This document shows, one piece after another, positions 5,267-42,498 of a stretch of DNA of 42,821 nucleotides. The stretch's first letter is position 1. Every line of letters starts with the position of its first letter. A program made the position numbers and the translations under genes. The notes under the pieces are model-generated. The model was given only the letters and a program-made list of their open reading frames with translations. It searched no databases and was not told the DNA's origin. Origin of the DNA: Pseudobutyrivibrio sp. (GTDB taxonomy: Bacteria > Bacillota > Clostridia > Lachnospirales > Lachnospiraceae); the NCBI GenBank assembly GCA_024681435.1, contig JAILAV010000179.1, positions 1-42,821 on the forward strand. The letters are read 5' to 3'.

Positions 5267-7672
5267 ATGAAAGTATCGAGATTAATTACTCCCGAGGGAG
5301 AAAAGGCCCAAATAAATATTTCTGTTAGAAATCTAGTTGAGTTTCTTCTTAGAGAAGGAGATATTGATGACAGAAAAGGTTCTGTAGACCCATTCGAGGC
5401 CATGCAGGCGGGTAGTAGGATCCATAGAAAAATTCAAAATTCTATGGGTCCATTTTATAGTGCAGAAGTTCCTTTGAAATTTCAGGTAGAATACGAAGAC
5501 TATATTCTAGGACTGGAGGGCCGTGCTGATGGCCTGGTATTAGATAGAGATGAAAATGGTGATGTGGTTACTGCTACAGTTGATGAGATAAAGGGAATGT
5601 ACATGGATGTCATGACCTTTGAGAAGCCTGTTCTTGTACATGAAGCGCAGGCTAAGTGCTACGCCTACATGGTTGCCAGCGAGTATAATCTTGAGACAAT
5701 AGAAGTTCAATTAACCTATGTCAGTCTTGAAACTGAAGAAATTAAATATTTCAATCAGCTATATACATATGATGAAATTGAAGAGTGGTTTTTGACAATC
5801 ATTGGCATATTTAAGAAATGGGCCGATTTCCAGTATTATCATAAGATGGAGCTTTTAGAGTCTGTTCAGGGATTGGATTTTCCTTATGAATATCGAGATG
5901 GTCAAAAGAAGCTTGTAAGTGATGTATATCGAACTATCTATAGACGAAAGATTTTATTTATGCAGGCTCCAACCGGTACTGGAAAGACCATTGCAAATGT
6001 TTTCCCTGCAGTAATGGCTCTTGGGCAGAATTTGGCAGAGAGAGTATTTTATCTTACTGCTAAAACGGCAACAGCTATAGCAGCAAGAGACGCATATAGC
6101 TTACTTGTAAGCAAGGGCTATGAAGGCAAGACCATTATGCTTACAGCAAAAGATAAAATGTGTATGTGCGATGAGGCTGATTGTAATCCTGATAATTGTC
6201 CTTATGCTCGTGGACATTTTGATAGAATAAACGATGCTATATATGAGGTAATTACAAAAGAGACTGTTATTACTCGTGATGTGATACTTGGTTATGCTGA
6301 GGAATATGTTGTGTGTCCTTTCGAGCTAGCTTTGGATATTAGTACTTGGTGCGAAGGGATAATTTGCGATTATAACTATGTGTTTGATCCAAATGTTTAT
6401 CTAAAGCGCTTTTTTGCAGAGGGTAAAAATGGAGAGCATATCTTCTTAATTGATGAGGCTCACAACATGGTTGATAGAGCCAGAGAAATGTATTCTGAGG
6501 ATTTGATAAAAGAAGAAGTTCTCTCTATAAAAAGATATGCAAAGCCTGTTAGCAAGAAGCTAGTTAATGCTTTAGAAAAATGTAACCGAATTCTTCTTGA
6601 ATATAAGAGAGAATGCGATAGGGATATAACTGTTCTTGATGATATAGATACGCTGATGAGTGCCTGCGATAATATCCAAATTATATTGGAGCAACTTTTT
6701 AAGAAGGAAATAAAGTTTGGAATATATCAGGATGAAGTTATAGATTTCTATTTCAGACTTAGAAATTTTACAGCTCTTGCATATCAGCAGGACAGTGACC
6801 ATTATAGAATCTATTGTGATTTTGATGAGGATAAGAATTTTCATCTTCATCTATATTGCATTGATCCATCTGCGCAATTACAGGATAGACTTAGGATGGC
6901 AAGATCTACTATCTATTTTAGTGCGACACTTTTGCCCATCGATTATTATAAGGACCTTCTATGTAATGAAAAGGATGTATACGCTATATATGTGGACTCT
7001 GTTTTTGACCAAAAGAATAGATTACTTTTGCTTGGTACAGATGTTACTAGCAAGTATACTAGGCGTGGAGAAGATGAGTATCTTAAATTTGCAAAATACA
7101 TACAGACTATCGTAAATGCGAATCGAGGCAATTACATGGTCTTTTCTCCATCCTACAAATTCTTAGAAGAAATTCAGCAAAAATATGAGGCTTTTAGAGA
7201 TGATGTTGATGTCATAATTCAAAAGCAAAATATGACTGAACAGGAAAGAGAAGAGTTTCTTGGAGAATTTGATAAAAATAGAAGCAAGGCTATGGTGGCA
7301 TTTTGCACGCTAGGTGGAATCTTTTCAGAAGGAATAGATCTTGTTGGAGGAAAACTTATCGGCTCTATTATTCTTGGGCCAGGACTTCCACAAGTTGGAA
7401 ATGAGCGAAAGCTTATGTCAGATTTCTTTGATGATAATGGCAAAAATGGATTTGAGTACGCATATTTATACCCTGGAATGAATAAAGTAATTCAGGCGGC
7501 AGGCCGTCTAATTAGGACAAAGGATGATGTGGGAGTTATAGCATTACTTGATGAAAGATTTAGATTTTCAAGTTATAGAAAAACATTTCCAAGGGAATGG
7601 AATGATGCTACGTTTACCACAATTGATGATATTTCGTTAAAATTAACAAATTTCTGGTCAAAAAAGCCTTGA
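5267..7672 (+). CDS. DinG/XPD-like superfamily 2 DNA helicase with N-terminal RecB-like nuclease domain (801 aa)
   Basis: The N-terminal ~200 residues carry PD-(D/E)XK motifs: GRADGLV, then DEIKGM, then QAKCYAYM (QxxxY). The helicase core has Walker A QAPTGTGKT (~232), a four-cysteine cluster CMCDEADCNPDNC (~299-311) typical of the iron-sulfur domain of XPD/DinG helicases, DEAH (396-399), and the C-terminal motifs GGIFSEGIDL and QAAGRLIRT. It is therefore a likely 5'-3' ATP-dependent DNA repair helicase fused to a nuclease, cytosolic. I start it at the ATG at 5267, because the track's GTG at 5240 lies inside the preceding terminator stem. That leaves almost no Shine-Dalgarno sequence, so expression may be weak or use an unusual start. 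Confidence 0.9.
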   Translation: MKVSRLITPEGEKAQINISVRNLVEFLLREGDIDDRKGSVDPFEAMQAGSRIHRKIQNSMGPFYSAEVPLKFQVEYEDYILGLEGRADGLVLDRDENGDVVTATVDEIKGMYMDVMTFEKPVLVHEAQAKCYAYMVASEYNLETIEVQLTYVSLETEEIKYFNQLYTYDEIEEWFLTIIGIFKKWADFQYYHKMELLESVQGLDFPYEYRDGQKKLVSDVYRTIYRRKILFMQAPTGTGKTIANVFPAVMALGQNLAERVFYLTAKTATAIAARDAYSLLVSKGYEGKTIMLTAKDKMCMCDEADCNPDNCPYARGHFDRINDAIYEVITKETVITRDVILGYAEEYVVCPFELALDISTWCEGIICDYNYVFDPNVYLKRFFAEGKNGEHIFLIDEAHNMVDRAREMYSEDLIKEEVLSIKRYAKPVSKKLVNALEKCNRILLEYKRECDRDITVLDDIDTLMSACDNIQIILEQLFKKEIKFGIYQDEVIDFYFRLRNFTALAYQQDSDHYRIYCDFDEDKNFHLHLYCIDPSAQLQDRLRMARSTIYFSATLLPIDYYKDLLCNEKDVYAIYVDSVFDQKNRLLLLGTDVTSKYTRRGEDEYLKFAKYIQTIVNANRGNYMVFSPSYKFLEEIQQKYEAFRDDVDVIIQKQNMTEQEREEFLGEFDKNRSKAMVAFCTLGGIFSEGIDLVGGKLIGSIILGPGLPQVGNERKLMSDFFDDNGKNGFEYAYLYPGMNKVIQAAGRLIRTKDDVGVIALLDERFRFSSYRKTFPREWNDATFTTIDDISLKLTNFWSKKP

Positions 7673-11726: not shown

Positions 11727-12797
11727 ATGAAAGCATTTTTGATTTTGGAAGATGGAACAGTATTTGAGGGAACTAGCATTGGTTCTACCAGAGAAGTCAT
11801 CAGTGAGATTGTATTCAATACATCTATGACTGGATATTTGGAGGTCCTTACAGACCCTTCATATGCAGGTCAGGCAGTATGTATGACATATCCTCTGATT
11901 GGTAATTATGGTATTACACCTGATATGGAAAGCGGCAGACCATGGCCAGACGGTTTTATTGTAAGAGAACTTAGCCGTATTCCTTCAAACTTCAGATGTC
12001 AGGGTACAATACAAGATTTTCTTGTAAAGCACGATATACCAGGTATTGCTGGTATCGATACAAGAGCACTTACAAAAATCTTGCGTGACCGTGGAACAAT
12101 GAACGGTATGATTACTACAAATGAAAACTATAACTTTGAAGAGATTCAGCCAAAGCTTAAGGCATATCAAACAGGAGATGTAGTTTCAAAGGTAACATGC
12201 GAGTCAAAATCAGTTCTACCAGGCGCTGGCAAGAAGGTTGCTCTTTTAGATTTTGGAGCAAAGAAGAATATTGCAAAATCTCTTAATGACAGAGGTTGCG
12301 AGGTTACAATTTACCCAGCACACACAAAGGCTGAAGAAATCCTTAAGACAAATCCAGATGGAATTATGCTTTCAAACGGACCTGGAGATCCAAAGGATTG
12401 TGGCCCAATCATAGATGAAGTAAGAAAACTATACGAAAGTAACACACCTATATTTGCAATTTGCCTCGGACATCAGCTTATGGCTCTTGCAACAGGTGCG
12501 GATACACACAAGCTTAAGTATGGTCACCGTGGTGGTAACCATCCAGTAAAGGATTTAGAGACAGGTCATGTATATATTTCATCACAGAATCATGGTTATG
12601 TAGTAGATACTGACAAGCTCGATCCAAAGGTTGCTACACCTGCATTCGTAAATGTAAACGATGGTACAAATGAAGGACTTAAATATACAGGAAAGAACAT
12701 TTTCACTGTTCAGTTCCATCCTGAAGCATGTCCAGGACCACAGGACAGCGGATATTTGTTTGATAGATTTATTAAGATGATGGGAGGAAATCAGTAA
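11727..12797 (+). CDS. carA: Carbamoyl-phosphate synthase, small (glutaminase) subunit
   Basis: Hydrolyses glutamine and passes ammonia to CarB for carbamoyl phosphate, the precursor of pyrimidines and arginine. The 356-aa length is normal. The N-terminal CarA domain (VFEGTSIG, MTGYLEVLTDPSYAGQ) is followed by a class I glutamine amidotransferase: LSNGPGDP, FAICLGHQLMALA with nucleophile C246, and VQFHPEACPGP with the catalytic His-Glu. A GAGG site precedes the ATG. The stop codon overlaps the carB start by one base (TAATG), so the subunits are translationally coupled. No pyr or arg genes are adjacent in this window. Confidence 0.97.
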   Translation: MKAFLILEDGTVFEGTSIGSTREVISEIVFNTSMTGYLEVLTDPSYAGQAVCMTYPLIGNYGITPDMESGRPWPDGFIVRELSRIPSNFRCQGTIQDFLVKHDIPGIAGIDTRALTKILRDRGTMNGMITTNENYNFEEIQPKLKAYQTGDVVSKVTCESKSVLPGAGKKVALLDFGAKKNIAKSLNDRGCEVTIYPAHTKAEEILKTNPDGIMLSNGPGDPKDCGPIIDEVRKLYESNTPIFAICLGHQLMALATGADTHKLKYGHRGGNHPVKDLETGHVYISSQNHGYVVDTDKLDPKVATPAFVNVNDGTNEGLKYTGKNIFTVQFHPEACPGPQDSGYLFDRFIKMMGGNQ

Positions 12798-31439: not shown

Positions 31440-31709
31440 TATACTTAATCAAACCACGGGTCTCCCGCGACGACCAATCCGGTAGGCGAGAATTCGAATC
31501 ATTGCTTTCACTTGCAGTAACTGGCGGAGATCATAGTTGGATTTAGACTTTAAATCGACGTTTTCTTCGTACTGATGTTTTTCGATCGTTAAAGTAAACA
31601 TGATGCAAGAAAAATAATTATATTTAGGCATTTTTGCTATCAAAGACACATTTGTAACATATTTAGCTAATAGAATCTCAAACAAGTTACAAAACACGGC
31701 ACCAGATTT
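31440..31709. other. Intergenic region with a GC-richer patch; no supported gene
   Basis: After the reverse tRNA-Met copy comes a stretch (about 31456-31510) that is richer in GC than its surroundings. It contains CGGGTCTCCCG and a T-loop-like TTCGAATC, but no cloverleaf folds. Then ordinary AT-rich sequence leads to the PepSY gene. The minus-strand ORF 31449-31721 crosses the PepSY ribosome-binding site, and I do not accept it. Likely tRNA debris or the remnant of an old integration. Confidence 0.5.
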
Positions 31710-31723
31710 TGGAGGGTACAATT

Positions 31724-32002
31724 ATGATGAAGAAGTTATTTGCATCTATTTTTACATTTGCAGGTACAGCTTATGCATTTGCAGCTGAAGAAGCAGTAGT
31801 TATTACTGAGGATGATGCATTACAAATTGCACTTGATACAGCAAACTTTAAGGCTACATCTATTCAATATCCTAAGGTTTGGGATGATACTAATGATGGA
31901 ACAGCTATTTACAAAGTTGTATTTTATGTTGGCCCTGTTGAATTTGCATATCAAATTGATAAAGCTTCAGGTGAAGTATTAGCATCTGAGATTAATGACT
32001 AA
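31724..32002 (+). CDS. Secreted PepSY-domain protein (92 aa)
   Basis: A signal peptide (MMKKLFASIFTFAGTAYAFA, cleavage near AFA-AEE) precedes one PepSY domain: ITEDDALQIALDTANF, then YKVVFYVGPVEFAYQIDKASGEVLASEIND. PepSY domains are found as inhibitors or chaperones of secreted peptidases and in wall-associated proteins. The ATG at 31724 is chosen because GGAGGG lies 8 bases upstream; the track's TTG start overlaps that site. It stands alone between the tRNA region and a terminator. The target is unknown. Confidence 0.85.
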   Translation: MMKKLFASIFTFAGTAYAFAAEEAVVITEDDALQIALDTANFKATSIQYPKVWDDTNDGTAIYKVVFYVGPVEFAYQIDKASGEVLASEIND

Positions 32003-32036
32003 TTAAATTTGAAAACTGGAAATTGAGAAATTATTT

Positions 32037-32066
32037 GGGGCACCTCAACAAGGGTGCCATTTTTGT
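32037..32066 (+). terminator. Terminator after the PepSY gene
   Basis: GGCACC and GGTGCC pair around an 8-base loop, then ATTTTTG. Confidence 0.8.
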
Positions 32067-32129
32067 TAAGTATAGATAATACAGTATATTAGTATTGCAT
32101 GTTATACAAAAGATAGAAAATGTAGAAGT

Positions 32130-32159
32130 TTGACAATATATAACTATACAGGGTAATAT
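32130..32159 (+). promoter_or_regulatory. Promoter for the 312-aa secreted protein
   Basis: Consensus TTGACA, 18-base spacer, TAATAT, about 50 bases before the ATG. Confidence 0.75.
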
Positions 32160-32211
32160 AGCAATATTGATCTATAAATCTCATAGAGGGGATGAAAGGT
32201 AGGAGTTTTTA

Positions 32212-33150
32212 ATGAAAAAGATTTTATCAATGATGTTGGCTTTAGCGGCAGTAATTACATGTGTTACAACAAGCTCTATTACTGCGAGTGCAGCTTCGCC
32301 TGTTGAAGAGCTGTATGCCGTTATGAAGCAGAGTGATGGTTTAGTTGTAAATGGTAAGAGCTATGATTCCATTGCAATTGCAAAGTTACTAAAGGTACAG
32401 AGCCCAATTGTGACTTCGATAGCTGGTTATGAGTATCAATATCAAAATGAGTATGATGACTTCGGATATTTTTGGCGAAGTGATAGAAGAATTATACTTA
32501 TGAGCAACGGCTCATCAAATTATGAGAATCAAGAAAATGTTGTATATTATGATGTGTTATATGATGCGGTCAAAGGTGGTGTTGTTCCAGCAGCGCAAGC
32601 AGCAGAAGCAAATAAGCCATGTCAACTTATGAGCGCTAACTCTGATATATATAATTCAGTAACTGGTGGATTTACTACAAATGAACTTGCAGCTAGAAAT
32701 ATTAATGCTCAATTTTTAGCATCTTACATGCAGGCCCATAATTTTACATCTGCAGAAGATGTGGTTAAGTATTTGATGGCTAATGGTGTTGTATTTTGCA
32801 AAGTAGATATTGTTGATACAGGTATGACTGGTCGCAATAAATATAAGACAACACGCATACCTATGCCAAGTGATGTTGTTCTTTCAACACCTTCAGATTC
32901 AGGTCCATACTCAGCTGTAATTGGTAATTTAACAATTAGTTATAGCATAGACGAAGTTAGTGGTGGCGGTACTATTGTTTATGATGATAACGGTGGAATT
33001 ATCAGTGATACAAGTTTAAGCGGTAGAGGTTGTACTTTAGGTATTAGCGATTCTAAAAATCAATTTAGAATAAGCTCAACTATGCTGGGTAATAATATTC
33101 GTACTACATTTGGTAATTCACCATATGAATATCAAAAAACAGAATTATAA
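32212..33150 (+). CDS. Secreted protein of unknown function (312 aa)
   Basis: I do not recognise a domain. A clear signal peptide (KKILSMMLALAAVITCVTT, cleavage near ASA-ASP at ~27) is followed by a polar, Ser/Asn/Tyr-rich protein with no anchor, LPxTG or repeats. The tyrosine-rich stretch GYEYQYQNEYDDFGYFW (~72-88) and a glycine-rich, strand-like C-terminus suggest a folded extracellular beta-rich domain. Two Cys after the signal peptide, C137 and C195 (approximate), plus one near 276, could allow one disulfide. It has its own promoter (TTGACA-18-TAATAT), ribosome-binding site GTAGGAG and terminator, so it is a stand-alone unit. Confidence 0.8.
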   Translation: MKKILSMMLALAAVITCVTTSSITASAASPVEELYAVMKQSDGLVVNGKSYDSIAIAKLLKVQSPIVTSIAGYEYQYQNEYDDFGYFWRSDRRIILMSNGSSNYENQENVVYYDVLYDAVKGGVVPAAQAAEANKPCQLMSANSDIYNSVTGGFTTNELAARNINAQFLASYMQAHNFTSAEDVVKYLMANGVVFCKVDIVDTGMTGRNKYKTTRIPMPSDVVLSTPSDSGPYSAVIGNLTISYSIDEVSGGGTIVYDDNGGIISDTSLSGRGCTLGISDSKNQFRISSTMLGNNIRTTFGNSPYEYQKTEL

Positions 33151-33159
33151 GATTGTTAT

Positions 33160-33188
33160 GGCCGGTTATTAAATAATCGGCCTTTTTT
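33160..33188 (+). terminator. Terminator after the 312-aa secreted protein gene
   Basis: GGCCGGTTA and TAATCGGCC form a GC-rich stem around TTAAA, then TTTTTT. Confidence 0.9.
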
Positions 33189-33197
33189 CTAAAATAT

Positions 33198-33229
33198 AGT
33201 TAGACAAACCTAACTGCTGGTGTTATACT
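33198..33229 (+). promoter_or_regulatory. Metal-regulator-like operator overlapping the -35 of the HMA gene promoter
   Basis: AGTTAGACAAACCTAACT (33198-33215) is a 6-bp inverted repeat resembling DtxR/IdeR/MntR boxes (TTAGGTTnnCCTAA). Its TAGACA forms the -35 of a promoter with 17-base spacing to TATACT (33224-33229). A second, imperfect TAGACAAA occurs at 33249. A repressor bound here would block the promoter. Confidence 0.65.
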
Positions 33230-33265
33230 AATCGCAAAATTAAGGAGGTAGACAAATAGGTAATT

Positions 33266-33523
33266 ATGGTTAAGACAACACTAGAGATAGAAGGTATGAT
33301 GTGTGGCATGTGTGAGTCACATATAAATGATGTTATTAGAAAAGTAGTTCCTGATGCAAAGAAGGTTAAGAGTTCTCATTCTAAAGGAGAGAGTGTTTTT
33401 ATTTCAGATAAAGAACCTGGCGAAGAAAAAATCATGGCTGCTATAGCAGAGACAGGTTATGTAGTACATTCAGTACATACAGAACCATATACAAAGAAGT
33501 TTTTAGGGTTTTTGTCTTTTTAA
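33266..33523 (+). CDS. Heavy-metal-associated (HMA) domain protein, copper-chaperone-like (85 aa)
   Basis: A single ferredoxin-like HMA domain with the metal-binding MCGMC motif (EGMMCGMCESHIND), followed by the expected second half (VFISDKEPGEEKIMAAIAETGYVV). Such proteins carry Cu(I) or another soft metal between transporters and targets. The C-terminal FLGFLSF tail is hydrophobic and unusual for a soluble chaperone. Two possible ribosome-binding sites are present, a strong AAGGAGG 17 bases away and a weak AGG 5 bases away, so translation may be modest. No P-type ATPase or CsoR gene is adjacent, and the operator looks iron/manganese-type rather than copper-type. Confidence 0.88.
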   Translation: MVKTTLEIEGMMCGMCESHINDVIRKVVPDAKKVKSSHSKGESVFISDKEPGEEKIMAAIAETGYVVHSVHTEPYTKKFLGFLSF

Positions 33524-33587
33524 GCGCAGATTGTCATCCAAAAATCTTGTATAATAATATTAGGAGCTTAGATATTTGGAGGGGTCT

Positions 33588-34358
33588 ATGGAAAAGAAAA
33601 AAATATCCGCGCTAGTCATTGCTATTTGCACTATTTCTATTACATCTTGTGGCGTGGAACAAATAGTAGATAATGGACAAAATGATACACAGCAAGAAAC
33701 AAGTGCAATGGAAGAGCCATCACCTGTAGTAGAAGATGCAGCTCAAAATACAGATGATAATGTTGTTATTGAAATTACAGAAGGATATGTTAATTCGCCT
33801 GAATTTCAAGAAGCATTTGACAGTAATATAAGGATTGGCGGGCCGTATCATCCGGCAGGTGCTGCTGAGGTTACTGAATATAGCGATTGGCAGGAAGCAT
33901 ATGATGCTTTGATTCAGGATTTGAATTCGGAAGGTGATTCTATTGATCCTAAGATGATATATGTAAACGATGATGATATTCCTGAAATGGTATATGAGCC
34001 TTCAGAGAACAATATGATTATTGCAACTTTTGATGGAGAATACATTAATCTATTTAGTAGTAAGTTATCATCTATGAGTTACATTGAAAAGGCAAATAAT
34101 CTTTATGCTACAGAGCGAGTTGGTGCCTACTATGACGATTATGTAGTTGCAATTAAGGATGGCGCATGGGTTCAAATTGCCTATGGAGTTAGAGGTCCTA
34201 TTGATGAGTGGGCAGAGGATAGCTTTGATGAAAATGGTGAGCCAATTATTTCATATTGGTTACTTAATGACGTGGAGCTTAAATCTCAAGAAGATTATGA
34301 TAATGAATTTAAAAAGTTTTATGACCCTGCATATGCAAAGGCTGTAGAAATGGAATAA
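33588..34358 (+). CDS. Lipoprotein of unknown function (256 aa)
   Basis: The N-terminus MEKKKISALVIAICTISITSC has a lipobox-like ITSC, so it is probably lipidated at C21 and held on the outer face of the membrane. A ~35-residue acidic, Gln/Thr-rich linker leads to an acidic globular domain (ITEGYVNSPEFQEAFDSN, then WQEAYDALIQDL, then YVNDDDIPEMVYEPSENN). The DDDIPEMVY part resembles the calcium-loop-like D-x-D-x-PE motif seen in many clostridial lipoproteins with no known role. ATG at 33588 is chosen because GGAGGGG lies 4 bases upstream. A TATAAT-like box sits at about 33550. A terminator follows. Confidence 0.82.
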   Translation: MEKKKISALVIAICTISITSCGVEQIVDNGQNDTQQETSAMEEPSPVVEDAAQNTDDNVVIEITEGYVNSPEFQEAFDSNIRIGGPYHPAGAAEVTEYSDWQEAYDALIQDLNSEGDSIDPKMIYVNDDDIPEMVYEPSENNMIIATFDGEYINLFSSKLSSMSYIEKANNLYATERVGAYYDDYVVAIKDGAWVQIAYGVRGPIDEWAEDSFDENGEPIISYWLLNDVELKSQEDYDNEFKKFYDPAYAKAVEME

Positions 34359-34370
34359 ACTATTAAACCT

Positions 34371-34412
34371 AAAAGCAAGTCGGTTACCAAGTGTAGCTGA
34401 CCTGCTTTTTTT
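34371..34412 (+). terminator. Terminator after the lipoprotein gene
   Basis: AAAAGCA/TGCTTTT and GTC/GAC with further pairs form a long imperfect hairpin followed by a T-tract. The T-tract runs straight into the next promoter's repeat box. Confidence 0.85.
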
Positions 34413-34417
34413 ATTTC

Positions 34418-34447
34418 AAGGTTAATTTAAGATTGCGATTTTATACT
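34418..34447 (+). promoter_or_regulatory. Response-regulator-type box and promoter before the small protein/RR/HK operon
   Basis: AAGGTT (34418) and AAGATT (34429), 11 bp apart, replace a normal -35 sequence; TATACT (34442-34447) is the -10. The whole TTCAAGGTTA-to-minus-10 layout recurs at 36940-36969 before the RND genes. Two direct repeats at one-helical-turn spacing are the usual binding site of OmpR/PhoB-class regulators. Confidence 0.75.
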
Positions 34448-34490: not shown

Positions 34491-34922
34491 ATGGAAATTA
34501 GTATAATTACAAATGGAACTGAGATGATGACAAAAACAGATCAAAACACAACAAAAGCAAAAGTGGAAAACAAAGAAGTATCACAAAAGGTTGATTCAGA
34601 AAATGGCTTAGAATTAAGCAAAGCTGAGAACCCAAAAACTAAAGGAGACTCATTGGAAATGAGTGATAAGTACAATTTTATTAGCAAGGATGGTGATACT
34701 GTAGAATTATCAGAAACTGCTGAATCTATGAATGATTCAGAAGAATCTGATGATGGTATTATTAAACCTAAAAAGAAAATTATATCTGAAGGAAACATGA
34801 AGCTTGCTAAAACAAGTATTTCAGATGCAACATTAGCTAAAATGTCAAAAGCTAAATTACAACAATTATTGGCAGCAGGACAAATTAGTAGGCAGCAATA
34901 TAACAAAGCAGTAAAGAAATAA
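34491..34922 (+). CDS. Small acidic protein with SHOCT-like C-terminus, first gene of the two-component operon (143 aa)
   Basis: I do not recognise the whole protein. Residues ~20-95 are polar and probably disordered, and contain three similar short elements (GLELSKAEN, DSLEMSDKY, DTVELSETAES). The last ~30 residues, KAKLQQLLAAGQISRQQYNKAVKK, look like a SHOCT short C-terminal domain. The DTVELS element is also reminiscent of FlgM, but that is a weak similarity. No signal peptide. ATG at 34491 is chosen since AAGGAAGGTG lies just upstream and the track's GTG lies within it. It is preceded by the response-regulator-type promoter and has no terminator before the RR gene, so it is likely part of the circuit. 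Confidence 0.72.
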   Translation: MEISIITNGTEMMTKTDQNTTKAKVENKEVSQKVDSENGLELSKAENPKTKGDSLEMSDKYNFISKDGDTVELSETAESMNDSEESDDGIIKPKKKIISEGNMKLAKTSISDATLAKMSKAKLQQLLAAGQISRQQYNKAVKK

Positions 34923-34996: not shown

Positions 34997-35671
34997 ATGA
35001 GAGTATTAATAGTTGAGGATGAAAAAGAAATTGCAGATGGTGTAGCGGGGATATTGAATGGAGAGGGATATAATACCGATGCTGTCTATGATGGAGAAGA
35101 TGGACTGGACTATATTCTTTATGGCTTTTACGATATTATTCTTTTAGATGTAATGTTGCCAGGTCTTAATGGTTTTGATATTTTGAAAAAAATCAGAGAT
35201 AAGGGAATAAGCACACCTGTAATTATGTTAACTGCAAAGTCCCAAGTGGAAGATAAAATCCAGGGGCTAAATCTTGGCGCTGATGATTATTTAACAAAGC
35301 CTTTTGATGCTGGGGAGTTACTTGCTAGAATACGAGCTAGAATAAGGAATACCGCTGATCTTTCAGAAAATGTTTTATCGGCATACGATATCAGCATTGA
35401 TACTTCTACATATCAGTTAAAGAAAGGGGATAAAGCTATCAAACTTTCTAAAACTGAGTATCAAATGTTGGAATGTCTGATGATGAATAAAGGCCAGATT
35501 TTGCCAAAGAATACCATAATTAATAAAGTATGGGGATTTGATGAATCTGGTGATTATAATAATCTTGAAGTATATGTTTCTTTCTTGCGTAAGAAATTGA
35601 AGTTTGTTGGTGCCAGTGCTTGCATAGTAACGCAAAAAGGCGTGGGATATAGTTTGAATGCAGGAGTGTGA
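34997..35671 (+). CDS. OmpR/PhoB-family response regulator (224 aa)
   Basis: The receiver domain (1-~115) has the acidic pair in VEDEKE, phospho-acceptor D51 (LLDVMLPGLNGFD), the T/S in MLTAKS and K in LTKPFD. The winged-helix DNA-binding domain (~130-224) has LSKTEYQMLECLMMNKG and VYVSFLRKKL, ending VTQKGVGYSLN. CAGGAGG lies before the ATG. The histidine kinase starts 3 bases after its stop, so the pair is co-translated. It probably controls its own operon and the RND pump through the AAGGTT repeats. Confidence 0.96.
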   Translation: MRVLIVEDEKEIADGVAGILNGEGYNTDAVYDGEDGLDYILYGFYDIILLDVMLPGLNGFDILKKIRDKGISTPVIMLTAKSQVEDKIQGLNLGADDYLTKPFDAGELLARIRARIRNTADLSENVLSAYDISIDTSTYQLKKGDKAIKLSKTEYQMLECLMMNKGQILPKNTIINKVWGFDESGDYNNLEVYVSFLRKKLKFVGASACIVTQKGVGYSLNAGV

Positions 35672-35674
35672 TAA

Positions 35675-36877
35675 ATGGTTTCTGATTTAAGAAAAAAATT
35701 TGTTATAGTCACGACCACACTGATGATTGTTATTTTTGGTGCTTTTTTTATAGTGACTCAAATAGCTAACTTATATTGGACCAAGGTTGACACAGCAGAC
35801 TTTTTATATACTCTTGCGTATAGCGATTTCTTTCTTACAGATATTGATGGTTCTGTGGAGGATACTATAGAAACTATTATAGAGGAAGATAATCCAATCT
35901 TTGGAATTATAGTGGATAAAGCTGGAAATATGTTATCTTCCAAGACTGTTGGAAATTCGGCAAGGCCTACAATTTCACAGACTACTATAGCTAATATATT
36001 AAAAGCTGATACTAAAGAATATAGGATAAACAGTTATGTTTATGCAAGAAGACAACTAGAAGATGAGAAGACACTTATCGTAATTACGGATACATCTATT
36101 GATGATAATTTCACTACGAAATTGATTAGCACAATTGGAATAGCTATTTGTGGAATTATCATATTAGTATTAATTACATTTTATCTTTCAAGATTTGTAA
36201 CGGAGCCAGCTAAGGCAGCTTTACTTAGAGAAAAACAATTCATCTCAGATGCCAGTCACGAATTGAAAACTCCTCTTGGAGCTATTAGCATTAATGCACA
36301 GGCATTGAGTGCAAATATGCCAGAGAACATATATACAAGAAATATAATCAATGAATCAAATAGGATGGCAAGATTGATCGAAAAGTTACTTACTCTTTCA
36401 AAATTTGATGAGGGTAATATATCTTCTCAAGAAAAAATATCTTTATCTAATTTGGCTTATGAAATATTTCTTACATATGAAAGTTTGGCATTTGAAAAGG
36501 GCTTTACATACAACTACGAAATTGAAAATGATATAGATATTATTGGAAACGCGGATGAAATAAGGCAGTTAATGACAATACTTGTGGATAATGCTATTAA
36601 GAACACCAATGAAAACGGTTCTATAGAGATATGTTGCAAAAGTGTTAATGGTGAAGTTGAGCTGGTTGTAAAAAATACAGGTGTAGGTATAAGTGAAGAG
36701 GATTTGCCTCATGTATTTGAGCGTTTTTATACTTCTGATACATCAAGGAGTAATAAAAGCTTTGGGCTGGGACTTGCCATTGCAAATGCTATAGTAAAAG
36801 AACACAATGGTAAGCTTCAAGTTAGCAGTATACAAAATCAATATACAGAGTTTACCGCAAGCTTTAAAACAATTTAA
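35675..36877 (+). CDS. Sensor histidine kinase (400 aa)
   Basis: Membrane sensor with TM1 at ~9-31 and an extracytoplasmic sensor of ~115 residues (TADFLYTLAYSDF to DTSIDDNFTTK). TM2 is at ~149-172. The HisKA domain has phospho-acceptor H195 (SDASHELKTPLGA), followed by HATPase_c with the N box (LVDNAIKNT), G1 (NTGVGISEEDL), F box (ERFYTSD) and G2 (SFGLGLAIA). No HAMP domain is obvious between TM2 and the dimerisation helix. The stimulus is unknown. Its position before a pump under the same box suggests it senses a toxic or envelope signal relieved by efflux. Confidence 0.95.
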   Translation: MVSDLRKKFVIVTTTLMIVIFGAFFIVTQIANLYWTKVDTADFLYTLAYSDFFLTDIDGSVEDTIETIIEEDNPIFGIIVDKAGNMLSSKTVGNSARPTISQTTIANILKADTKEYRINSYVYARRQLEDEKTLIVITDTSIDDNFTTKLISTIGIAICGIIILVLITFYLSRFVTEPAKAALLREKQFISDASHELKTPLGAISINAQALSANMPENIYTRNIINESNRMARLIEKLLTLSKFDEGNISSQEKISLSNLAYEIFLTYESLAFEKGFTYNYEIENDIDIIGNADEIRQLMTILVDNAIKNTNENGSIEICCKSVNGEVELVVKNTGVGISEEDLPHVFERFYTSDTSRSNKSFGLGLAIANAIVKEHNGKLQVSSIQNQYTEFTASFKTI

Positions 36878-36939: not shown

Positions 36940-36969
36940 AAGGTTATTTTAAGGTTGCCCTATTATCAT
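36940..36969 (+). promoter_or_regulatory. Response-regulator-type box and promoter before the RND efflux operon
   Basis: AAGGTT (36940) and AAGGTT (36951), 11 bp apart, with TATCAT (36964-36969) exactly 13 bases after the start of the second repeat, as at the sister site 34418-34447. No TTGACA-like -35 is present, so activation by a bound regulator is expected. Confidence 0.78.
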
Positions 36970-37000: not shown

Positions 37001-38674
37001 GTGAAGAATTATAAATATTTAAAACGAATATCTTCTGTTTTATTATTAGCCACTATTCTTTTATCTGGATGTGGAAGTGAAGAAGAGAATGTTGAAGAAA
37101 CAAAGATAGATGTCGAAGCAGAAAGTCCTACAGTAAAGAGCATATCTCAAATGGGAAGCTTTATAGGTACCATAGAGACTGAAGAAAAAATATCTGTTAT
37201 ACCAAATCTTTCGGGAAAGGTAACTGCATTAAATTATAAGGTTGGAGATCATGTTAATGCTGGAGATGTTTTGTTTACCTTAGATGATCGTGAATATCAG
37301 ATAGAAAAGAGAACTGCTGAAGCTAACGTAAGAGCTGCAAGCGCCACTTTAGATGCACAAAATATAAGAAATCGAGAAGTTCAGGTTGCAGCTAATGAGG
37401 CAATAGGTTCTGCTGATGCAAAATCAATTGAACTAAAGAATTCAATTAATAATTCGGCAAGAGAGGAGGAAAACTCTCGTAGAAAACGTGATAGCTACAA
37501 TAGCGCAGCTAATTCTTACAAGGATGAAGAGAATAGAATTAGTAAAATGAAAGGTGAGGCTGACAATCGTATTAACAGCGCTAATTCTAAAATTAGTGAA
37601 TTAAATTCTATTAAAAGTGTATACGATGAAATATCTTCCTCAGATGACCCTGCGACAGTTGCAAAAAATAATGGAGTTGATGAAAGTGATATAGGTTCAT
37701 CAACAGATGCATCAGAGATAGCAAATATATATTTAAGCAAAAAAACACAATATAGCTCTGTGGATGAAATTACATCAGCTATAGATAGTGCTGCGGAAGA
37801 AGTAAAAACAGCTGAGAATGAAAAGAAAGAATTGGAAAGTTCTTACAATAATGCAGTTGTATCACGAGTTGAGGCTGAAGCTAATGCAAATATAGAAAGC
37901 TCCAATATGACATCAGCCCAGGAGGCTAAAAAGCTTGCAAATAGAGCTAGTCAGGATTATGAGAATTATACAAAGAAATCATTGATTTCAGATGCGCAGG
38001 CTAAAGTTGCAGAAGGAAATGCAACTAAAATCACAAATGAGTCTGCTGTTACAACATCAACATCAGAACTTGAAGCTGCAAATTTAAAAATAGAGAACAC
38101 AGTAATAAAAGCTCCTATAAGTGGAATTATACAAGAAATAAATGTAAAGCAGTTTGAGGTGGCATCTGATCAGTCTGTTGCAGTTGTTATTTCAAATCCT
38201 GCAGCAAAAAAAGCGGTGTTCTATGTTACAGAGGAAGTAAAGAACAATGTAAAAGTAGGCCAGAAGGTTCTCATAACAAAAAATGACACAGAGTATGATG
38301 CTCAGGTTGCTAATGTAGCAAATACGCTTGATGAACAAAAGAAATTGTATAAAGTTAGCGCTACATTATCTGCAGATGCGCAAGCTGCATTTGATACTGG
38401 TCAGAATGTAAAGCTTTCTACAAGTATTAAAACTGATAACGATGCCACAACTATACCTGTTGGTGCAGTTTATTATAGTGAAGGCAAAGCCTATGTTTAT
38501 ACAGTTGAAAAGAATAAGGCTATAAAGAAGGATATAGAAGTTGGTATTGTGGATAAAAATGATGCAGAAGTTATTTCGGGCTTGACACAAAAGGACAAGG
38601 TAATTTCTAACTGGTCATCTCAGTTAAAGGATCAATCAGATGTTAATGTTAAGAAGAAAGTAGAAAAATCATGA
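37001..38674 (+). CDS. RND efflux adaptor lipoprotein (HlyD/MFP family, 557 aa)
   Basis: Membrane-fusion partner of the RND pump. Signal sequence with lipobox ILLSGC (C near 24) anchors it to the outer membrane face. The lipoyl/barrel start (ISVIPNLSGKVTALNYKVGDHVNAGDVLF) is followed by an unusually long, charged helical region (~100-350) predicted as a coiled-coil hairpin. The second lipoyl half follows (IENTVIKAPISGIIQEINVKQFEV), then beta-barrel and membrane-proximal domains (VGQKVLITKNDTEYDAQV, AVYYSEGKAYVYTVE). Adaptors of this family are usually 350-450 aa, so the hairpin is long. GTG start with AAGGAG 8 bases upstream. It overlaps the pump gene by four bases (ATGA). Confidence 0.92.
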   Translation: MKNYKYLKRISSVLLLATILLSGCGSEEENVEETKIDVEAESPTVKSISQMGSFIGTIETEEKISVIPNLSGKVTALNYKVGDHVNAGDVLFTLDDREYQIEKRTAEANVRAASATLDAQNIRNREVQVAANEAIGSADAKSIELKNSINNSAREEENSRRKRDSYNSAANSYKDEENRISKMKGEADNRINSANSKISELNSIKSVYDEISSSDDPATVAKNNGVDESDIGSSTDASEIANIYLSKKTQYSSVDEITSAIDSAAEEVKTAENEKKELESSYNNAVVSRVEAEANANIESSNMTSAQEAKKLANRASQDYENYTKKSLISDAQAKVAEGNATKITNESAVTTSTSELEAANLKIENTVIKAPISGIIQEINVKQFEVASDQSVAVVISNPAAKKAVFYVTEEVKNNVKVGQKVLITKNDTEYDAQVANVANTLDEQKKLYKVSATLSADAQAAFDTGQNVKLSTSIKTDNDATTIPVGAVYYSEGKAYVYTVEKNKAIKKDIEVGIVDKNDAEVISGLTQKDKVISNWSSQLKDQSDVNVKKKVEKS

Positions 38675-41600
38675 GAAAGTTTATAAAAACAGTTTTGGAA
38701 CGCCCAGTTGCTGTAGTTGTTAGTGTAGTCGCGCTTATTCTATTCGGTGTTAGTTCCATGACTGGTATGTCTTTGGAATTATATCCCCAGACAAGTTATC
38801 CAATGCTATTTGTTAGTACGATGTATCCTCAGGCAGGCCCTGAGGAAATAGAAAGACTTATTACACAAAAAATTGAAGAGTCTTGTGGAACTTTATCTGG
38901 ACTAAAAGAAATGTCCTCTACATCAAGTGCAGGAATGTCTGAGGTTACATTTCAATTTGCCTATGGCACGGATTTAGGAACGGCTCGAACTCAATTACAG
39001 GAAGCTCTTGAAGATGCAAAAATGGAATTTCCTGAAGGAGTTCAATCTCCTAGTATTGTATCAATGAATAATACAGCAGATGCGGCTATATCAATATCAA
39101 TTGAATCTAGCAAGAAGAATGTTGATGTACGTTCATTAGTTAAGCAACAGGTTGTTCCTGAACTCAAGAAGATAAATGATGCAGCAGCTGTAAAATGGTA
39201 TGGTGGTAATGAAAGATATATTTCGGTAGAGTTACATCCTGAATTGGTTGGACAATACAATCTTGATATTGGTAGTATTTCAGATATGATAGCTGCTGCG
39301 AACATGGAAGCTGCAGCAGGACAAGTTGCATATGGTAATCAAAATCTTAATGTAAGTGCTAAGGTTAAATATGCAGATGTCGACGCTTTGAAAAATATAC
39401 CTATATCTTTAAAAACAGGAGAAGTAATTCATTTAAGAGATATTGCAAATGTCCATTATGGAGATATGGAGCCAGATAGTTATAGCCGATTTAATGGTAA
39501 GGACAACATATCTGTTGATATAACAAAAAAACAAAAAGCTAATGTTATTTCGCTATCTAAGGATGTTAAAAATGTCCTTGAGAGAATTAAAGAGAAAAAT
39601 CCTGATTTGAATATTGAGGTAATATTTGATTCAAGTGAAACTATTGTAAAATCCATCAAATCTATCGGGCAGACACTGTTCCTTGGTGTAGGGTTATCAA
39701 TGCTTGTACTATTCATATTCTTTGGAGATTTAAAAGCAAGTTTGATAGTAGGAAGTTCGATGCCTATATCATTGTTGGCGACATTTATTTTGATGAATAA
39801 AATGGGATTTACTCTAAATCTTATAACTATGAGTGCGCTAGTTATTGGTATAGGTATGATGGTTGATAATGCAATCGTTGTCATAGAAATGTGTTTCAGA
39901 AAGCGCGATGAAGGATTTAGTTTTAAAGAAGCAGCCTATGAAGGAACATCCCTTATTGTAAATTCCGTTTTAGCATCCACATTGACATCAGTTGTAGTAT
40001 ACTTACCACTTGCTGGTTTGCAGGGAATGTCTGGACAAATGTATAGTCCTCTGGGATACACTATCGTATTTGCGTTAATGGCATCTTTAATATCAGCTAT
40101 TACACTTATTCCTTTGTGTTTCTCAAAATACAAGCCTGTGGAAAAGAAAGAGCTTCGAATTAATGAATTATTAGAAAAGCTTGGTAATTTATACCAACGA
40201 GGAATGCCAATAGTATTAAAGCACAGAATTGTAGTAATCGTCGTATCTCTTTCTTTAATGGTTACTTCAGCGCTTATAGCTACAAGATTGCAAATGGAGC
40301 TTATGGCTGCATCAGATGAAAAGCAGGTTTCTGTGGAACTTACATTTAAGCCGGGGCTGGATCTTAAGATCATGGACGAAATTACTAAGCACTTTGAACA
40401 ATTTGTTTCAGCTGATAAGGAAGTTGAAAACTATAGTGCAATGGTTTCTAAGGAAGAAGCTAAATCTACTATTAATGCCTATATTAACAAGAAAACAAGA
40501 CATTCTACTCAGCAAATTATTGATAGATGGAATAAAGACCTTGCGCATTTTGATGACAGATGTGAATTCAAAGTAAGTTTGGCTGACCCAGAAGGAATGG
40601 GAGATATGGGCGGAGGAAATGTTGTAGAAATTGCGTTGAAGAGTAGTAATTTAGATAATTTAAAAGACGCTTCTAAACAAATCCAAGAACTAGTATCTAA
40701 AAAGCCAGGAGTATTAACGGTACAAAATACTTTATTGCAAGGTGGATTTAAAGCCGAGGTTGTTATTGACCCAGAGCTTGCACTTAGCCGTGGGTTTACA
40801 ACATCTCAATTAGGTGATCTTTTACGCCAAAAGGTATCTGGTAAAAAGGCTATAGATGTCACAGTTGATGATAGAAAATTTGATGTTATGGTGGAAGAGC
40901 CAAAAGAACTGAGAGGCGATATAGGGGCATTAGAAAATATGAGCTTTATGAACGAAAACGGTGATTTCGTTCCATTTAGCGAAATAGCCCATGTTGAGTA
41001 CAAGGATATTCCTCAGAATATCATTAGAACTAATGGCCAATATGAAGGAAGTATTAAGGTAACACTTCCGGCCAATAAAGTTCAAAAATTATCTGAAGAA
41101 ATTAAGAAAGAAGTTAAGGAAATTAGTTTACCTGATAATGTTAGCTTAGGAGAAACAAGAGCTGAAGAAAGCATGGAAGAAGAGTTCTCTGGCATAGGAA
41201 AAGCAATTTTTTCTGCTGTTTTCTTAGTATTTATGGTAATGGCTATACAGTTTGAGTCTATACGTAATTCACTTCTTGTTATGTTCTGTATACCATTTAG
41301 CGCAATTGGATCTATTCCATTGCTATTTATTACTAATACTAAGTTGAGTATGACTTCATTAATGGGATTTTTGATGTTGGCAGGTATCGTTGTTAATAAT
41401 GGTATTTTGCTTTTGGATACATCAAATGAAAATGCAAAGTCTATGCCAATGGAGGATGCAGTAATTTTGGCTGGAAAATCTCGATTAAGACCGATTCTTA
41501 TGACTACAATGACAACGATTTTATCAATGCTGCCAATGTGTATTTCCCGAGGCGGAAGCGAAGACTCAATGAAGGGCATGGCAATTGTTATTATTGGAGG

Positions 41601-41694
41601 TTTAACAGCATCAACAATACTTACATTTTTCCTTTTGCCAACTTTCTATTTAATTATTCAAAAGAAAAAGGTTAAGTACGCATATAATGAATAA
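38671..41694 (+). CDS. RND-family efflux transporter, HAE1/SwrC-like (1007 aa)
   Basis: A proton-driven 12-helix pump of the AcrB superfamily. TM1 (~12-32) is followed by a large external loop (YPQAGPEEIERLITQKIEE). TM2-TM6 include VIGIGMMVDNAIVVIEM, with the proton-relay Asp at 399; the second Asp of AcrB is Asn here, common in SwrC-like pumps. The second external loop has GETRAEESMEEEF, and the last helices have MLAGIVVNNGILLLDTSNE and RLRPILMTTMTTILSMLP. Length is normal. In Gram-positives such pumps export surfactants, bile-like compounds, lipids or drugs without an outer-membrane channel. Co-translated with its adaptor; likely controlled by the upstream two-component system. Confidence 0.96.
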   Translation: MRKFIKTVLERPVAVVVSVVALILFGVSSMTGMSLELYPQTSYPMLFVSTMYPQAGPEEIERLITQKIEESCGTLSGLKEMSSTSSAGMSEVTFQFAYGTDLGTARTQLQEALEDAKMEFPEGVQSPSIVSMNNTADAAISISIESSKKNVDVRSLVKQQVVPELKKINDAAAVKWYGGNERYISVELHPELVGQYNLDIGSISDMIAAANMEAAAGQVAYGNQNLNVSAKVKYADVDALKNIPISLKTGEVIHLRDIANVHYGDMEPDSYSRFNGKDNISVDITKKQKANVISLSKDVKNVLERIKEKNPDLNIEVIFDSSETIVKSIKSIGQTLFLGVGLSMLVLFIFFGDLKASLIVGSSMPISLLATFILMNKMGFTLNLITMSALVIGIGMMVDNAIVVIEMCFRKRDEGFSFKEAAYEGTSLIVNSVLASTLTSVVVYLPLAGLQGMSGQMYSPLGYTIVFALMASLISAITLIPLCFSKYKPVEKKELRINELLEKLGNLYQRGMPIVLKHRIVVIVVSLSLMVTSALIATRLQMELMAASDEKQVSVELTFKPGLDLKIMDEITKHFEQFVSADKEVENYSAMVSKEEAKSTINAYINKKTRHSTQQIIDRWNKDLAHFDDRCEFKVSLADPEGMGDMGGGNVVEIALKSSNLDNLKDASKQIQELVSKKPGVLTVQNTLLQGGFKAEVVIDPELALSRGFTTSQLGDLLRQKVSGKKAIDVTVDDRKFDVMVEEPKELRGDIGALENMSFMNENGDFVPFSEIAHVEYKDIPQNIIRTNGQYEGSIKVTLPANKVQKLSEEIKKEVKEISLPDNVSLGETRAEESMEEEFSGIGKAIFSAVFLVFMVMAIQFESIRNSLLVMFCIPFSAIGSIPLLFITNTKLSMTSLMGFLMLAGIVVNNGILLLDTSNENAKSMPMEDAVILAGKSRLRPILMTTMTTILSMLPMCISRGGSEDSMKGMAIVIIGGLTASTILTFFLLPTFYLIIQKKKVKYAYNE

Positions 41695-41757
41695 TGTTGT
41701 ATAATATTTTTATCTTAATCAGACTCTTTAAGAGTTATGAGATGGAGTATAGTAAAT

Positions 41758-42498
41758 ATGCTAAAAGATAAAGATATTAGAGAGCCGCTTTTTGAATTCT
41801 TAGAGATAGAGTACGGTAAAACTAGAATAATTGAAGAAAAAATGATGGGACAGTCAAGGGCAGATGTGATCATGGTTATCACCTCTGCCCTGGTTGGGTT
41901 AGAGATTAAATCAGATGCTGACACATACACTAGACTGGAAAGCCAGGTGAAGGACTATGACAAATACTTTGATTACAATATTGTTGTAGTAGGAAGTAGT
42001 CACGCTATGCATGTAGAAGAGCATGTGCCAGAACATTGGGGAATTATCACCGTAGATGAAATTGATGATAAGCCTGATTTTTATTTTCTTAGAAGACCAG
42101 CTATAAATAAGAAAATGAAACTTAATCGCAAGCTGGAATTGCTGTGGAGGCCAGAGTTATCGATTCTTCTTAATAAATTTAATATGCCTGCTTATGAGGC
42201 GAAAAGTAAAATATTTGTTAGGAAAAAACTAATAGAATGGACAAAGATGCCTCTTACCCAAGCTAATATTACCAGGATTAAAAGATCAGCTAAGGCAGAA
42301 GGAATAGAACCTGTAATTCCTGAATCAAGAATTAATCCCGATGATTTGAATAAAGAAATTAGTGAATTATTATTTGAACGAGATTATGAAAAGATGTTGG
42401 CCGAAATTGCAGAGTATCGAAAGCTTCATTCGCCAAGGAGAAGAGGACCGAAAAAAACCACTAGAATTAAGCGTGTTAGACGACTTAGTAAAAAATAA
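41758..42498 (+). CDS. sce7726-family protein, nuclease-like fold (246 aa)
   Basis: The N-terminal half fits the sce7726 family: MLKDKDIREPLFEFLE, then RADVIMVITSALVGLEIKSDADTYTRLESQ, then YDKYFDYNIVVVGSSH. The D-(x)n-ExK arrangement (RADV...LEIKSD) followed by a QxxxY-type QVKDY is characteristic of PD-(D/E)XK nuclease folds, so a DNA- or RNA-acting role is plausible but unproven. The C-terminal ~60 residues are basic (RRRGPKKTTRIKRVRRLSKK), fitting nucleic-acid contact. I prefer the ATG at 41758, since GGAG lies 10 bases upstream and the family typically begins near MLNDKDIRE. A TATAAT at 41700 may be its -10. Confidence 0.85.
   Translation: MLKDKDIREPLFEFLEIEYGKTRIIEEKMMGQSRADVIMVITSALVGLEIKSDADTYTRLESQVKDYDKYFDYNIVVVGSSHAMHVEEHVPEHWGIITVDEIDDKPDFYFLRRPAINKKMKLNRKLELLWRPELSILLNKFNMPAYEAKSKIFVRKKLIEWTKMPLTQANITRIKRSAKAEGIEPVIPESRINPDDLNKEISELLFERDYEKMLAEIAEYRKLHSPRRRGPKKTTRIKRVRRLSKK

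Follow-up and report, generated by a model that had tools for sequence, protein, structure and literature searches.

A small disordered protein at the head of a probable two-component and RND-efflux regulon in Pseudobutyrivibrio is a putative stray member of a Lachnospiraceae family found in flagellated species

The presence of an unrecognised small gene directly ahead of an OmpR-type response regulator (RR) and its histidine kinase (HK) raises the question as to what its product does there, and whether it acts on the two-component system (TCS) or is simply controlled by it. The gene lies at 34491..34922 on the plus strand of the window, by which we mean the whole stretch of 42,821 nucleotides of a Pseudobutyrivibrio sp. 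contig that was analysed. A sequence-only reading had described its product as a disordered acidic N-terminus with three related short elements joined to a SHOCT-like C-terminus, and had proposed it as a third partner of the TCS with a loose likeness to FlgM. The open reading frame runs exactly as it had been called, with an ATG behind a good Shine-Dalgarno sequence (AAGGAAGG), and is a real gene encoding a protein of 143 residues. The reverse strand holds just one open frame, of 121 aa, which is unrelated and unsupported. Its description as unrecognised stands.

An intrinsic-terminator-like stem-loop with a T tail (34379..34401, plus strand) sits right behind the preceding ORF; one such stem was found against about one expected by chance, and if it closes the unit of the preceding gene, a new unit would begin at 34491. 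Only 74 bp separate the gene from that of the OmpR-type regulator (34997..35671, plus strand; Pfam Response_reg 4.6e-31, Trans_reg_C 6e-21), with no terminator called in between, and the sensor histidine kinase follows (35675..36877, plus strand; HATPase_c 1.6e-25, HisKA 5.4e-15) with two transmembrane segments by inspection. Beyond it on the same strand are an HlyD-type membrane-fusion protein, the efflux-pump adaptor (37001..38674, HlyD_3 1.8e-14), and an RND efflux transporter of the AcrB/AcrD/AcrF family (38671..41694, ACR_tran 1e-211). Directly 3' of the RND gene, 41737-42498 encodes a 253-aa protein with no Pfam match at E <=1. The upstream region 31709-34358 is a run of small unassigned genes, three of them exported-looking by their N-termini, comprising a PepSY protein (31709-32002), a secreted-looking 312-aa protein (32212-33150), an HMA-domain protein (33266-33523) and a lipoprotein-like 260-aa protein (33576-34358).

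The strongest pointer to how the gene is controlled is a putative RR box at 34418..34435 (plus strand), 55 bp 5' of the start codon at 34491, which is an 11-bp direct repeat (AAGGTTAATTTAAGATTG) of the OmpR/PhoB-site kind. A second, near-identical box (AAGGTTATTTTAAGGTTG; 36940..36957, plus strand) lies 5' of the pump operon. The two box regions are identical at 25/30 bases, in comparison with a maximum of 23 among 60 shuffled pairs and of 20 elsewhere in the window. Exact matches to the pattern common to both occur at these two sites only in the whole assembly, a uniqueness that is partly by construction as the pattern was derived from the sites themselves. A wide regulon was rejected, since sites with 2-3 mismatches are no commoner in the genome than with the reversed control. 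The closest orthologous TCS, in a genome of another genus (G421), lends independent support: its regulator is 57% identical to that of the window and its operon is preceded by AAGGTTTATTTAAGGTGG (L120:9486-9503, minus strand), two mismatches from the pattern; the box at 34418-34435 is therefore very probably that of the window regulator. With a box directly upstream, a near-identical one before the pump genes and a related one before the nearest orthologous RR-HK pair, the gene is very probably the first of an autoregulated RR-HK operon, and from this position it is likely to belong to the TCS regulon. The sequence-only reading was right to place it first after the regulator's own box, which it has in common with the pump. 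The first gene of the G421 operon, behind the same kind of box, encodes a PAP2-like membrane protein (named by eye from its sequence; L120:8754-9404, minus strand) that is not a relative of the window protein; different genomes put different genes at the head of this operon, a place that seems open to exchange.

Direct orthologues of the window protein were absent from 61 relatives, where of five weak matches only one (L006) proved to be a true, distant relative, and none was found in a single-sequence search of an 84,980-species collection or among 72,556 plasmids. Weak profile matches to penicillin-binding proteins and HlyD hairpins were dismissed as chance after reading. The way into its family was a very weak match in a sister species (E=0.92) in which two common motifs appeared on reading, and the family was then extended stepwise, first within the genus, next to other genera and finally to 69 loci in a named species collection, all of them in Lachnospiraceae and mostly from the rumen (Pseudobutyrivibrio, Butyrivibrio, Eubacterium oxidoreducens and uncultured relatives). 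In total there are about 77 non-redundant loci besides the window copy, and no Pfam or NCBIfam model recognises the family over its cut-off. Members are defined by a motif A, S-x-D-G-D-T-(V/L), followed by a motif B, L-x-x-(L/M)-x-x-x-G-x-I-S-x-x-x-Y; most are disordered proteins of 180-366 aa with S-x-D-G-D-T-(V/L)-Q-V-S and a hairpin of consensus (S/T)-D-x-x-L-x-Q-(M/L)-Y-L-x-G-(E/D)-I-S-x-x-D-Y-(D/N)-x-E-(M/I)-x-x-R. The window protein carries both motifs, as SKDGDTVEL and LQQLLAAGQISRQQY. Scored by a family profile from which it was left out, it reaches 23.8 bits, where the best of 5,000 shuffles reaches 10.7; a 57-member profile, again without it, gives it 28.5 bits, where the best of 3,000 shuffles reaches 9.3 and the best non-member among 2,099 ORFs 13.8; the N-terminal part contributes 10.9 bits and the C-terminal part 23.3. 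Identity to the relatives is only about 20%, and we read the window protein as a diverged stray member of an unnamed Lachnospiraceae family, so far of gut and rumen bacteria.

The same genome holds a canonical family copy of 235 aa (L139, G000:C63:9195-9899). Its neighbour, in this and other species of the genus, is pyruvate formate-lyase, to which no metabolic connection is evident. Two further features were seen among the family loci. In 9/83 a small protein of about 110-120 aa without a Pfam match is encoded 3' of the family gene on the same strand, for example at L183:7932-8288 (plus), L146:7754-8095 (minus) and L190:6976-7302 (minus), with an S-P-M-S-M-N-P-I-like start in several, and it may work together with the canonical family. 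One locus (L144, G027:C28) has identical family-gene copies at 6017-6691 (minus) and 12034-12708 (plus), inverted and within 7 kb, which could stem from a recent inverted duplication or be a mirror artefact of the assembly.

With no hydrophobic segment (maximum 19-residue Kyte-Doolittle value 0.25), the window protein itself should be cytoplasmic. Its N-terminal 100 residues are acidic and polar (23% D/E, 30% S/T/N/Q), and AlphaFold2, run with 34 relatives, predicts order only in residues 110-143, in agreement with the N-terminal disorder proposed earlier. There it predicts helices at 112-116, 120-129 and 134-142 with a pLDDT of 90-96, corresponding to motif B and the SHOCT-like C-terminal helices (34824..34916, plus strand; L..L...G.IS...Y, pLDDT >90); around the DGD turn it predicts a weak beta-hairpin. 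The hairpin fold has no match at E <2 among solved structures, and a profile search of PDB sequences gave nothing below E 0.3. The three elements are LELSKAE (residues 40-46; 34608..34628), LEMSDKY (residues 55-61; 34653..34673) and VELSETAE (residues 71-78), all on the plus strand, the last being run into by motif A, SKDGDTVEL, within the weakly predicted beta-hairpin (34683..34724). The core [LVIM]E[LVIM]S, a pattern picked after the repeats had been seen, occurs at least three times in just 3/100,000 shuffles of the protein, and the elements therefore exceed what composition gives. That much of the earlier claim stands; conservation does not, as LELS-type repeats have no counterpart in 54/57 family relatives, the first two elements are not conserved, and only the third overlaps a conserved motif, S-x-D-G-D-T-V.

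What the family members do have in common is a flagellated host. FlhA is present in 153/299 background genomes of the bacterial family (298 genera), and all 16 of the family-bearing genomes in that sample, counted by reading profile matches, carry it (hypergeometric p=1.5e-5). So do 50/50 further family-bearing genomes reached through the named collection, some of them perhaps near relatives of the first 16, giving 66/66 in all; the family is confined to flagellated species as far as tested. Shared descent within one motile clade, instead of function, may explain part of this association, and it is a real alternative because published comparisons with Butyrivibrio name flagellum biosynthesis as one of the roles of Pseudobutyrivibrio-specific genes (PMC6912079). 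No family gene stands beside a flagellar operon in the loci read. Three candidate links were rejected: sigma-D promoters 5' of family genes (1/23 against 0.54 by chance), GGDEF neighbours (32/617, 5.2%, against 18/223, 8.1%, around RND genes) and chemoreceptor neighbours (12/617, 1.9%, against 3/223, 1.3%, around RND genes).

The reading that we prefer, with a probability of roughly 0.4, is that a small protein of a flagellate lineage has been recruited into a TCS/RND-efflux regulon, where its hairpin would dock on a partner more likely to be related to motility than to be the TCS. A short, diverged second family member would have been set behind an OmpR-type box at the head of the RR-HK operon, so that triggering of the kinase would lead the regulator to raise its own level, that of the small protein and that of the pump; we infer both the binding of the box by the regulator and the co-transcription. 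The soluble unfolded N-terminus would act as a tether with short motifs, its repeated V/L-E-L/M-S elements may offer further weak contacts, and the C-terminal hairpin would be the docking unit by way of a face made of the conserved L, G-x-I-S and Y. The target would most likely be whichever partner the family serves in flagellated cells, in flagellar export, assembly or regulation, and a flagellar component is a more likely partner than the TCS, as flagella are the trait common to the genomes that carry the family. The result may be a coupling of pump induction to motility through this putative partner. TCS-controlled RND operons are familiar, BaeSR-type regulons being an example, and the window resembles them in having an OmpR RR-HK pair adjoining MFP-RND genes with common tandem-repeat boxes; it differs in that the operon starts with an extra small disordered protein and in that the RND pump belongs to a Firmicute lineage. 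In its fullest form, in which an undescribed Lachnospiraceae family of flagellum-associated regulators has had one copy recruited as a TCS effector and the RND response also sets motility through the hairpin protein, the proposal is speculative and on balance unlikely.

The foremost alternative is the one from which the question started, that this copy in particular is a third partner of the TCS, its hairpin binding the DHp helices of the kinase or the regulator and closing a feedback loop in the manner of Sda, MgrB or PmrD. The gene comes first after the box of the regulator itself, its product is cytoplasmic by prediction with a small helical hairpin, and unrelated small modulators of kinases and regulators such as Sda, KipI, MgrB and PmrD are well known (PMC12471899). 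The likeness to these four is that of a small protein which here stands beside a TCS and is probably controlled by it. Sda is moreover a helical hairpin too. The differences are that no sequence relation to any of them is shown and that the family has no TCS linkage anywhere else. The gene-neighbourhood survey which the sequence-only reading had called for bears this out, as none of 77 other non-redundant family loci (homologues and not orthologues of the window copy) adjoins an OmpR-type RR and HisKA kinase pair; the RR and HK matches within 5 genes of family loci are all distant (<=34% identity) and comprise hybrid kinases, an AraC-type response regulator and other receiver proteins. Conversely, the nearest orthologous TCS lacks a family protein and has the PAP2-like protein in the slot, and plain target genes often occupy the first slot of autoregulated operons. 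When a syntenic operon was sought through the kinase, regulator and pump, all matches had other neighbours (kinase <=43%, RND <=47% identity), and no orthologue of the window copy or of its operon was found. The sequence-only reading had named unlinked orthologues or unconserved repeats as what would tell against its proposal, and at the level of the family both are what we see. The claim is thus best divided: membership of the TCS regulon is likely, but the window protein does not appear to be a conserved third partner of two-component systems. Having diverged, lost its tail and gained repeats, the window copy may have acquired a partner of its own within the TCS; as an account of this locus we nevertheless consider the third-partner reading unlikely.

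The features that set this copy apart could also mean that the duplicate is decaying or drifting, a shortened family member that persists in the operon with its function gone. In most relatives the hairpin lies 70-140 residues from the C-terminus, and the 70-90 residues that usually come after it are absent from the window protein, which ends 6 residues past the hairpin; having lost this tail, the window copy may be without the family function. Another short member (L179) ends 29 residues past the hairpin, and a long tail is therefore not universal in the family. Long divergence (about 20% identity to relatives), the lost tail and the absence of a detected orthologue would all suit decay. On the other side, the reading frame, the Shine-Dalgarno sequence, the S-x-D-G-D-T-V motif and the key hairpin residues (L, G, I, S, Y) are all intact, the protein has a lysine-rich end and a clean stop after the hairpin, and a dedicated regulated promoter has apparently been kept. 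We regard decay as quite unlikely.

Improbable to much the same degree is that this is a true SHOCT-domain protein with a general SHOCT function in protein or nucleic-acid binding or in localisation. SHOCT has been described as a C-terminal two-helix unit of about 30 residues around a conserved glycine, of unknown function (PMC3581485). The window protein shares this layout, with helices 120-129 and 134-142 flanking G130 and the last residue at 143, inside the 50 residues from the C-terminus taken as the limit. SHOCT is also its best single Pfam match (15.2 bits, E=0.019 for the whole protein; 17.8 bits, E=0.0027 for the last 43 residues) and the commonest match of the hairpin in the family, appearing at E <=10 for 11/38 relatives' hairpin fragments where the next best Pfam family appears for 5. 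Against this, 17.8 bits is the best score of any family member tested and none reaches the curated cut-off of 27 bits for PF09851, the hairpin is internal in most relatives, and the family has the additional N-terminal S-x-D-G-D-T-V motif. The earlier SHOCT assignment holds only as a sub-threshold resemblance of a helical hairpin.

More improbable still is a FlgM-like anti-sigma factor or export substrate, whose D-x-V-x-(L/I)-S element and helices would bind sigma-28 or the export gate and allow the TCS to silence late flagellar genes: the protein is small and soluble with a disordered N-terminus, its order of parts is that of the FlgM of the genus (a DEVQIS element, then IK..I..GTYDV), and the restriction of the family to flagellated hosts fits the hunch of the sequence-only reading, but homology is undetectable by profile comparison (hhalign against 22 FlgM proteins of relatives gives a probability of 0.5% over 12 aligned columns), a local FlgM profile gives the window protein 2.9 bits with the family at noise level, the Pfam scan did not report FlgM (PF04316) for it, there is no sigma-D promoter, and the genome carries a separate bona fide FlgM (G000:C87).

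Recruitment of a flagellate-lineage hairpin protein into an efflux regulon, if true, would point to an unnamed family whose presence tracks flagella in Lachnospiraceae and to a testable route from an envelope or efflux stress signal to motility in rumen and gut bacteria. Should there be no such coupling, the family, which like its distribution is new and open to test, would still give the genetics of motility in Butyrivibrio-type bacteria a concrete target that is small and easy to delete.
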